64,000 nucleotides of DNA. Source: Natronomonas marina. Its GTDB lineage: Archaea; Halobacteriota; Halobacteria; Halobacteriales; Haloarculaceae. The position numbers and the translations under genes are program-made. The stretch covers positions 2,046,001 through 2,110,000 of the forward strand of contig NZ_CP101154.1 in NCBI RefSeq assembly GCF_024298905.1, read 5' to 3'. How positions within the stretch are numbered: position 1 is the stretch's first letter; each line of letters starts with the position of its first letter. This document shows positions 25,336-27,729 of the stretch, piece by piece. The notes beneath the pieces were generated by a model. That model saw nothing but the letters and a program-made list of their open reading frames with translations. It searched no databases and had not been told where the DNA came from.

Positions 25336-25606
25336 GGGTTGTGGGGCGAAATGCGGTCGAACGGCGATGCTACGTCGAGGGAGAATCAGTCGCGTACGCG
25401 TACGGGCGTTTCGAGCATCGCGTACCCCACCCTCGGGACGCATACATAATACACGTTCATGTTGGTGCGGCGTTCGCGGCATCGGTGCGCCGTATCCCTC
25501 GCAGGTCCGGTCACCGTGACCCTGCCTTCGTACTCGAAGCCGACCCGCGAGGGGGCCCCGAGGGGCGCGCCTCGGCGGTCGTTTCGACCCGGGACGAGCG
25601 GATGTA

Positions 25607-25634
25607 TTGATATAGCAGTATGTAGTTTACGGGT
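25607..25634 (+). repeat. 28-bp inverted site, left copy (11-6-11 architecture)
   Basis: TTGATATAGCA-GTATGT-AGTTTACGGGT. Its reverse complement matches the site at 27624-27651 in 11/11 and 10/11 arm positions, whereas the central six bases differ at four positions. The two copies point at each other and bracket the HTH-type gene and the tyrosine recombinase gene. Two 11-base arms around a 6-base centre is the layout of dif/Xer-like recombination sites. Confidence 0.65.
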
Positions 25635-25930
25635 TCGCGTTGCGACGCCCCCGAATCCGCTATCAGCCCCAGTCCGACGACGAAAGCGACCAGACGCCGG
25701 GCAGCAGGCAACGGTCGACGCCCAGCGAGACACTCCCGTAATGGATGCGTGCCCCCTCGTGAAGGTCGTGAGAGCCCTGAGCCCCTGCCATGCAGCCACC
25801 CCCCAGGGAGCCCGAGAGCCGCCCCACGACAGTACCCCCACGCACGATACGATGTTACACCAGGGTCGAGGCTACCCGCGCCGGACTATCGACTGCGTTC
25901 CCCCACCGGCGCGAACGGCACCCTCGGCGT

Positions 25931-26067
25931 GTCGATACCGACGCCGGACGGCCCGGACTCGCGTCAGACGATATATCGGTCGATATGAAGCCAACCTCGG
26001 AAATATGAATCACTTTCGTCGATATACTACTGGCAACCGCCACCTGAGAGAATTATTCTGGTCGATA
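25931..26067 (+). repeat. Four direct copies of GTCGATA before the recombinase operon
   Basis: GTCGATA occurs at 25931, 25979, 26018 and 26061, all in the same orientation, 39-48 bases apart. The second copy abuts a CGATATATCG palindrome (25969-25978) and the fourth is part of the promoter inverted repeat. Such regular spacing suggests binding sites for a protein, perhaps the small HTH protein or the recombinase itself. Confidence 0.45.
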
Positions 26068-26080
26068 AAAGCCTTTATCG
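26063..26080. promoter_or_regulatory. Inverted repeat over the TATA box of the recombinase operon
   Basis: CGATAAA-AGCC-TTTATCG is a perfect 7+4+7 inverted repeat. It includes the TATA-like CTTTATC about 25 bases before the ATG at 26100 and about 50 bases before the ATG at 26127. Binding here would block the promoter; autoregulation by the first gene is plausible. Confidence 0.55.
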
Positions 26081-26126
26081 AGTTGTCTGACGTACTTTGA
26101 TGTGGAACCCGCTTGTGGCCGCAAAC

Positions 26127-26525
26127 ATGAGCGAGACCGACCGCGTCTCCGTCCAGACGTACGTGCCGGCCACACAGCGGGAACGGTGGCGGGCGGAGGC
26201 CGACGAACTCGACATGAGTCAGGCGGAATACGTCAGGGCGATGGTCCAGGCGGGAAGGCGGGGGTTCGAACTCGGGGACGCCGGGACAGGAAACGGCGTC
26301 GAAGCCGATCCTCCGGACGCTACCCCTGGGGGCGACGGCCTGAAAGACCGGGTCCTCGACGTTCTCGACGAGTCGGAGGTCGCCGGCTGGGACGAACTCC
26401 TGGCGGGCGTGACCGACGACATCGAGGAACGACTCGACGACGCCCTCGAAGAGCTGCAGGCCGAAGACCGGATCCGCTACAGCGGGCGGCGCGGTGGATA
26501 CACGGTGGTCGACGATGGGCGTTGA
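26127..26525 (+). CDS. Small DNA-binding-type protein (DUF5805-like) paired with recombinase
   Basis: The 132-residue protein has a ribbon-helix-helix-like N-terminus (VQTYVPATQRERWRAEADEL, then DMSQAEYVRAMVQAGRRGFEL) and a C-terminal winged-helix-like part (GLKDRVLDVLDESEVAGWDEL ... ALEELQAEDRIRYSG). This layout is what I know as the haloarchaeal DUF5805 family, usually beside a phage-type integrase. It overlaps the recombinase gene by 11 bases. By promoter position a leaderless start at ATG 26100 (nine residues longer) is possible. A regulator or recombination directionality factor is the likely role. Confidence 0.8.
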   Translation: MSETDRVSVQTYVPATQRERWRAEADELDMSQAEYVRAMVQAGRRGFELGDAGTGNGVEADPPDATPGGDGLKDRVLDVLDESEVAGWDELLAGVTDDIEERLDDALEELQAEDRIRYSGRRGGYTVVDDGR

Positions 26526-27546
26526 GGATCGCACCGGATCGCCGGCGCCCGACGACCCCGTGGGGTACTTCCTGCAGGACATGACGTTTCACGGCCGCAG
26601 CGACCGGACGAAGAGCGCCTACGAGCGAGTTCTCCGGGAGTTCGAGGCGTTCGTCGGAACGCGCGGCACGGACCTCGAGACTGCCACACAGCGAGAATGC
26701 ATGGCCTGGGTCCACTCGATACGGGACGAACACGCACCCAGTACCGTCGCCTCCTACGCCTCCTACGTCCACCGGTTCTACGCGTACATGACCCAGGTCG
26801 GCGCCTTCGAGTCGAACCCGATGGCACTGGTCACCGAGGAGATGGACGAATCCATCGATTCGGACCCCGCACGGCGGGAGATATCCGTCCCGGAGATGCG
26901 CTCGTTCGTCGCGGGAGTGGGTCACCCGCTCGAACGGGCGATCATCGGGACGCTCCTGAAGACCGGTATGCGGGTCGGCGAGTGCTGCAACCTGGACCTC
27001 CGAGACATCCACCTCGACGATTCCGAGGTACGGGAGGCGTACCCGACGGACCCACGGGGGTCACTCGACGGACGGCCGGACTCGGTGTTCGTCGCCAGCG
27101 AACCCACCAGGGGCGACGTCTACAACGACGAGGAGCGAACCGCATCCAACAAGCGAAAACGGGACACCGTCGTTCCGATCGACGACGAACTGAAGCACCT
27201 TTTAAAATCGTGGCTGGCGATACGCCCCGACAGCGACAGCCCGGCGCTGTTCTGTTCGACGAGCGAGTGGGGCAAGCGCGCCACCCCCTCGATGGTCCGG
27301 TCGTTCGTCGCCGAGCGGGCCGCCGAGCGGGGGTGGTACCGTGCTGGCGGCGACGCCGCCGAGAACGTCACCCCACATTACTTCCGGCACTTCTTCACGA
27401 CCCACCTGCGGGACAGGACGGGCGACCGGGGGATCGTGAAGTACCTGCGCGGCGACGTTGCCGCCGACATCATCGACACCTACACCCACAACTGGGGCGA
27501 CAGGGTGCGAGAGGTCTACGAGGCCAACGTCTACCGGCTGCTGTAG
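26515..27546 (+). CDS. Tyrosine recombinase (XerC/D-like integrase)
   Basis: The 343-residue protein has an N-terminal SAM-like core-binding domain (residues 15-110) and a catalytic domain with Arg153 (GMRVGE), His288 and Arg291 (PHYFRH) and the nucleophile Tyr323 (DTYTHN). The usual LGH histidine before the tyrosine is replaced: the segment reads YLRGDVAADIIDTY. This variant occurs, to my memory, in a conserved haloarchaeal integrase family. It may act on the two 28-bp sites flanking the gene pair. Confidence 0.9.
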   Translation: MGVEDRTGSPAPDDPVGYFLQDMTFHGRSDRTKSAYERVLREFEAFVGTRGTDLETATQRECMAWVHSIRDEHAPSTVASYASYVHRFYAYMTQVGAFESNPMALVTEEMDESIDSDPARREISVPEMRSFVAGVGHPLERAIIGTLLKTGMRVGECCNLDLRDIHLDDSEVREAYPTDPRGSLDGRPDSVFVASEPTRGDVYNDEERTASNKRKRDTVVPIDDELKHLLKSWLAIRPDSDSPALFCSTSEWGKRATPSMVRSFVAERAAERGWYRAGGDAAENVTPHYFRHFFTTHLRDRTGDRGIVKYLRGDVAADIIDTYTHNWGDRVREVYEANVYRLL

Positions 27547-27729
27547 CCGGCTCGGACCTCGCGTTTTTCCGGAATCTCCGTTTTCCGACCCAGGAGATCG
27601 GTCGTAATTCAGTCGCCCGGCCGACTCGTAAACTGTATGTTGCTATATCAAATTGGCGTCCTCGGGGACGGGCTACGGTGGGTTTTACAGCGTGGATTCG
27701 GACGAACGAGCGTTACTACGGCGGGTCGA
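27547..27729. other. Spacer between recombinase and dabA
   Basis: These 183 bases hold no convincing gene. T-runs follow the recombinase stop (GCGTTTTTCC near 27563 and CCGTTTTCC near 27580) and may end its transcript. The right 28-bp arm site lies at 27624-27651. The remainder precedes the 3' end of dabA. Confidence 0.5.
27624..27651 (-). repeat. 28-bp inverted site, right copy (11-6-11 architecture)
   Basis: On the plus strand this reads ACTCGTAAACT-GTATGT-TGCTATATCAA. It is the inverted partner of 25607-25634, with near-identical arms. The centre GTATGT is in the same plus-strand orientation in both copies, although the arms are inverted. A reading as decayed coding sequence (VN[YC][IM]LLYQ in both) is the main alternative. 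Confidence 0.65.

Follow-up and report, generated by a model that had tools for sequence, protein, structure and literature searches.

A candidate Xer/dif-type locus with two inverted sites around a tyrosine recombinase gene pair in haloarchaea

How haloarchaea resolve chromosome dimers and complete replication is an open question, and the locus described here bears on both processes. Haloferax volcanii has 12 xerC/D-like genes according to a 2020 review, which assigns them no site and no proven role and leaves Xer function and dif open (PMC7776575). In the main text of the 2010 paper on archaeal dif sites, Thermococcales, Methanosphaera, and Sulfolobales are covered and haloarchaea go unnamed (PMC2958812). 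No report of a haloarchaeal dif site was found in the open-licence papers searched. The window analysed here is a stretch of 64,000 nucleotides from Natronomonas marina (contig NZ_CP101154.1, positions 2,046,001 to 2,110,000), in which a first-pass annotation had marked a recombinase gene pair lying between two inverted 28-bp sites. This arrangement raises the question of whether such sites are used by the recombinase and what purpose they would serve.

Two inverted sites and the genes between them

The inverted pair is indeed present. The 28-bp 11-6-11 core of the upstream site, at positions 25607-25634, reads TTGATATAGCA GTATGT AGTTTACGGGT on the + strand and is directed at the recombinase. 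The core of the downstream site, at 27624-27651 on the − strand, reads TTGATATAGCA ACATAC AGTTTACGAGT as its reverse complement and is also directed at the recombinase, 77 bp past the stop codon of that gene. Aligned in inverted orientation, the two sites agree at 21 of 22 arm bases and at 2 of 6 centre bases, which confirms the match originally described. When the alignment is extended over 44 bases, more common bases appear on the inner side, GAC among them. Inner accessory motifs are located here (GACG at 25644-25647 on the + strand and GACT at 27614-27611 on the − strand), and with these included the dif-like sites span 25605..25647 (+) and 27611..27653 (−). A search of the entire 3.99-Mb genome with a free centre and at most 3 mismatches recovered the two sites of the window as the sole matches, and a reversed-pattern control recovered 0.

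As had been annotated, the sites enclose a gene for a DUF5805 protein and a gene for a tyrosine recombinase. The latter (26515..27546, +; 343 aa; Pfam PF00589 and PF02899) and the DUF5805 gene overlap by 11 bp. Judged by sequence, the closest named family of this Xer-type enzyme is archaeal XerA: the top NCBIfam model is XerA_Arch (NF040815, an equivalog model), and the best fold matches of a structure model of moderate confidence are the archaeal XerA structures 5hxy and 4a8e. When the catalytic residues were checked against the R-K-H-R-H/W-Y set, R153, the K213 region, H288, R291, and Y323 were found to be invariant, and the counterpart of the third catalytic His in XerD and XerA is an invariant Asp, D314 (35 of 35 orthologues aligned). 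We did not file the enzyme as XerA because its score of 122 bits is below the curated cut-off of 220, because it is accompanied by two sites, and because of this invariant Asp.

The DUF5805 protein (26130..26525, +; 131 aa; Pfam PF19121, E 1.1e-28) is a candidate DNA-binding partner. Its AF2 model (pLDDT 79, pTM 0.39) yields only weak PDB matches, and the predicted fold comprises an N-terminal helical segment resembling a ribbon-helix-helix (RHH) and a C-terminal segment resembling a winged helix, both of a kind that may bind DNA. No literature on DUF5805 was found among open-licence papers. Between the upstream site and this operon lies a gene-poor stretch (25648..26129, no strand assigned) for which no conserved function was found, and a search of the same interval for an acidic open reading frame of the halophile type likewise found none. 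Nucleotide homology in relatives begins approximately 440 bp before the recombinase start that was used in that comparison.

Conservation and distribution of the sites

A position weight matrix was grown from the sites of the window and then applied to 81 loci, of which 80 are from named haloarchaea and one is that of the window. The DUF5805 gene lies immediately upstream of the recombinase gene in all 81, and an inward-facing pair of sites brackets the two genes in 73. In these 73 loci, the counterpart of the upstream site is on the + strand at a median of 1.4 kb before the recombinase, and the − site is at a median of 61 bp after its stop codon. Among the eight loci where no pair was scored, three end near the recombinase (L044, L065, and L069), four retain one site or a weak second site, and one (L086) has none. 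Over the 1.32 Mb scanned, 165 of the sites exceeding 30 bits have the location and strand expected, and 7 lie elsewhere, likewise facing inward; note that the matrix was trained on these same loci and that 165 versus 7 is no independent error rate. A further set of loci, obtained afterwards in a different way and in part from other species, exhibits the same site pattern in most cases.

The conserved unit comprises AT, the 28-bp core, Y29, G31, and, on the inner side, RACR at positions 38-41. The core fits the 11-6-11 length and layout that had been proposed, but its arms are only weakly symmetric, and 28 bp is not the size of the whole unit, since the conserved motif runs on to approximately 43 bp. 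A search of 33 complete genomes with the extended motif gave 27 matches compared with 0 for the reversed control, and 17 of the 27 are within 15 kb of the recombinase, as worked out by hand. Together with the pairs found in 73 loci, these matches support the proposal that sites of the Xer/dif type are linked to this recombinase family. The alternative offered with it, a decayed coding repeat (VN[YC][IM]LLYQ), was rejected because the sites flank the gene pair in many genera and the 43-bp motif is kept while the flanking genes differ. Coupling sequences like those of Tn916 were also considered and rejected, as the outer arms are conserved as much as the inner arms.

The centre has the consensus N-Y-A-T-R-Y, in which AT is near invariant, and is nearly its own reverse complement (73 pairs). 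Read in the same site orientation, the two centres are identical in 3 of the 73 pairs (2.9 expected from shuffling), and exact reverse-complement centres occur in a single pair, that of the window itself (1.6 expected). The first-pass annotation was correct that GTATGT is read on the plus strand in both sites, but the significance attached to this does not stand: because centre agreement among the 73 pairs is at the chance level, the common plus-strand centre of the window is a coincidence.

Weaker matches to the core, read by hand across nine genomes, exhibit no obvious inward bias genome-wide, the inward and outward ones being about equal in number. Separately, some loci (L115, L117, and L124; L119 and L120; L113 and L130, with the window's own genome at 1.35 Mb) carry weaker convergent pairs or single sites, scoring 22-45 bits, in conserved chromosomal neighbourhoods of DHH-family genes and gcvPB. 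These sites have little of the RACR extension, and they may be promoter-like chance sites or relics.

A profile search detected the recombinase in 391 of 391 haloarchaeal genomes (at least 90% complete), representing 87 of the 87 genera of the order sampled, nearly always as one copy. In a phylum-wide sample at E<=1e-25, all 33 genomes with a match belong to the haloarchaeal order, and no match at this threshold was found in the other genomes of that sample. Only 2 of 72,556 plasmids carry the recombinase, and both are approximately 1 Mb in size. The gene pair is therefore no ordinary mobile element, contrary to the initial suggestion, since it is a chromosomal pair that is near-universal and almost always present once. 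Two cases concern large replicons. In Halomarina halobia, the cassette is present on the chromosome and on a 1.16-Mb plasmid (L045 and L049), as though there were one per large replicon. The 987-kb record of Natrinema thermotolerans labelled plasmid unnamed6 (L193) holds the cassette and dph2, and may be a piece of the chromosome.

Chromosomal position and orientation of the cassette

The most conserved orc1 gene, which gives one strong match per genome, served as the inferred marker of the main origin, haloarchaea having several origins. In 33 complete chromosomes from 22 genera, the recombinase is located at a median of 157 degrees from this gene and at 140 degrees or more in 26 of 33, a distribution that departs from uniform placement (KS p 3e-11; p 3e-7 for genus means). 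The control gene gcvPB is at a median of 115 degrees from orc1 and reaches 140 degrees in 6 of 30 chromosomes, and the two positions differ in a paired comparison (Wilcoxon p = 2e-5). Note that the placement of gcvPB also departs from uniformity (KS p 0.001), and gene position is therefore partly inherited. Nevertheless, the recombinase is clearly nearer the pole than gcvPB. With orc1 as the proxy, the locus is roughly opposite the main replication origin.

In an all-against-all comparison of flanks, homology on both sides was found for 46 locus pairs that share one cassette orientation and for 13 in which the cassette is inverted relative to both flanks, as in Haloferax marisrubri compared with Halogranum amylolyticum. 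The 72 loci linked in this way fall into two consistent orientation classes of 41 and 31, an assignment that satisfies 98.9% of the alignment weight. When orientation is placed on the recombinase tree, at least 6 changes are needed, at least 4 of them forced by well-supported branches, compared with 23 for shuffled labels; two flips inferred within Halorubrum rest on one-sided flank matches. The tree was built without the window row, and the Natronomonas relatives of the window on it have its orientation state. By these comparisons, cassette flips appear recurrent and not fast. Of the switch envisaged at the outset, inversion of the bracketed segment in evolution is supported, but a fast switch was rejected because orientation is clustered on the tree.

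One junction falls at a site. The sequence lying outside the downstream site in Halorubrum distributum matches that lying outside the upstream site in Halorubrum sp. Boch-26; both sites contain ATATAGCGACATAC, and similarity stops directly after the 6-bp centre, with approximately 25 bp immediately outside the core being less similar. In several species pairs, insertions of 0.6 to 4 kb adjoin the sites on their outer side, and in two Halorubrum pairs the bracketed DNA is the sole common sequence within 8 kb. The upstream site was also seen as tandem direct copies around extra DNA (-2424 and -1311 in L035; -4403 and -1127 in L111; -4955 and -1065 in L112; -4.6 kb and -0.8 kb in a Halorubrum), an arrangement compatible with insertions at the site. 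Because the cassette inversions are bounded by the sites, they point to recombination, and the flips and insertions beside the sites imply breakage there.

Proposed function and alternative readings

We consider that this is probably a haloarchaeal Xer/dif-type chromosome-maintenance locus near the replication terminus, composed of two inverted dif-like sites, a recombinase, and a DNA-binding partner, and we regard it as the best candidate so far for separating joined chromosome copies in haloarchaea. Which protein binds which element, the catalysis, and dimer resolution are what we infer. The recombinase would bind both arms of the 28-bp core and exchange strands across the 6-bp centre, and DUF5805 or another factor would bind the inner RACR element and thereby give the site its polarity. 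Each site would recombine chiefly with the corresponding site of a sister or dimeric chromosome, separating joined copies, and occasional recombination between the two sites of one chromosome would flip the cassette. Since nearly every haloarchaeon sampled has defined sites together with a single recombinase and a single partner, the question is directly testable.

The nearest known counterpart is the archaeal XerA/dif system of Pyrococcus abyssi, Thermoplasma, and Sulfolobus, which shares a chromosomal Xer-type recombinase of the nearest fold and family, a 28-bp 11-6-11 site (compared by length and layout), a location away from the main origin, and, as reported for Sulfolobales, a site near the gene (PMC2958812, PMC8371274). 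Unlike that system, the haloarchaeal locus has two inward sites instead of one, an asymmetric motif of approximately 43 bp with an inner RACR, and a DUF5805 partner, and its enzyme falls short of the XerA equivalog cut-off and carries Asp in place of the third catalytic His. Several features count against the Xer/dif reading: there are two sites per locus in 73 of 81 loci, the centres of paired sites agree only at chance, the arms are asymmetric, the enzyme is below the cut-off, and the Asp is found in every aligned sequence. Four Xer-like genes of H. volcanii, which may or may not include this recombinase, can be deleted (PMC7776575).

Other Xer systems offer partial parallels. XerS/difSL and XerH/difH likewise rely on a single recombinase, and the XerS site is genetically linked to its gene, but each has one site where the haloarchaeal locus has two; we know of no DUF5805-like partner in either. 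The dif (pdif) modules of Acinetobacter resemble the cassette in that genes are bracketed by Xer-type recombination sites. In contrast to the fixed, chromosomal haloarchaeal locus with its own recombinase, they are mobile, reside on plasmids, and use the XerCD of the host. To our knowledge, neither an inward pair of sites nor recurrent cassette flips have been described for any dif system.

A more specific form of the Xer/dif reading, which we put forward tentatively and judge rather unlikely, is a two-site chromosome resolution free of FtsK, in which inward terminus sites polarised by DUF5805 would coordinate fork convergence with sister recombination in polyploid archaea and the cassette inversions would be an evolutionary trace.

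Quite unlikely, in our view, is a polar replication fork trap, in which inward sites admit forks to the terminus and block their exit, with DUF5805 as the terminator protein and the recombinase as its partner. In RTP/Ter of Bacillus subtilis and Tus/Ter of E. coli, inverted polar terminus sites lie beside the gene of a DNA-binding protein, and no recombinase is involved. The haloarchaeal locus resembles these systems in having inward polar sites near the terminus and an adjoining gene for a predicted DNA-binding protein. The strict inward polarity in 73 of 81 loci, which extends to the outlying sites, the location opposite the most conserved orc1, the possible winged-helix segment, and the constant adjacency of DUF5805 to the recombinase would all suit a trap. 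However, the core matches recombinase sites and similar cores lie beside plasmid recombinases in 4-kb loci in which no DUF5805 gene was found, the site-bounded inversions point to recombination, and the weaker distal matches, read by hand, have no obvious inward bias.

A DNA inversion switch, whereby the recombinase flips the cassette and alters expression of neighbouring genes, is very unlikely. It would account for a recombinase bracketed by its own inverted sites, for the occurrence of both orientations among the species (41 and 31 of 72 loci), and for the Halorubrum junction. It is poorly reconciled with the clustering of orientation on the tree, with centre identity at chance, and with neighbour genes that vary between genera. 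We are equally doubtful that DUF5805 or the recombinase uses the sites as operators, for autoregulation or DNA architecture, and that the sites never recombine. Independent evolution of paired centres, the Asp at the third catalytic His, and a RACR extension that could be a repressor site agree with operators, but the downstream site lies past the recombinase stop codon, and breakage beside the sites is implied by the flips and insertions. Finally, an integrative element of 2 kb, whose attL/attR hybrids would have GTATGT as their direct overlap, is extremely improbable and was rejected. In its favour, when the window is considered alone, rejoined centres would yield two symmetric sites; against it, the recombinase is near-universal and nearly single-copy, reverse-complement centres are at the chance level (1 of 73 pairs, 1.6 expected), and Natronomonas relatives have the same flanks and orientation.

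The comparison with plasmids also bears on how the Xer/dif-type sites might be read. In part of the members of a second, plasmid tyrosine recombinase family, a related core lies approximately 250 bp upstream of the recombinase, and no DUF5805 gene was found in the 4-kb loci checked. The core is thus tied to recombinases, and the RACR extension would be read by DUF5805 or another factor. The plasmid-family cores are themselves candidate sites for plasmid multimer resolution. In L134, L136, L139, L141, and L146 (also L127), the related 28-bp core is near -249 and approximates TTTGTATAGCG ATATAC GATATACA, with a conserved extension of its own that differs from the RACR type.
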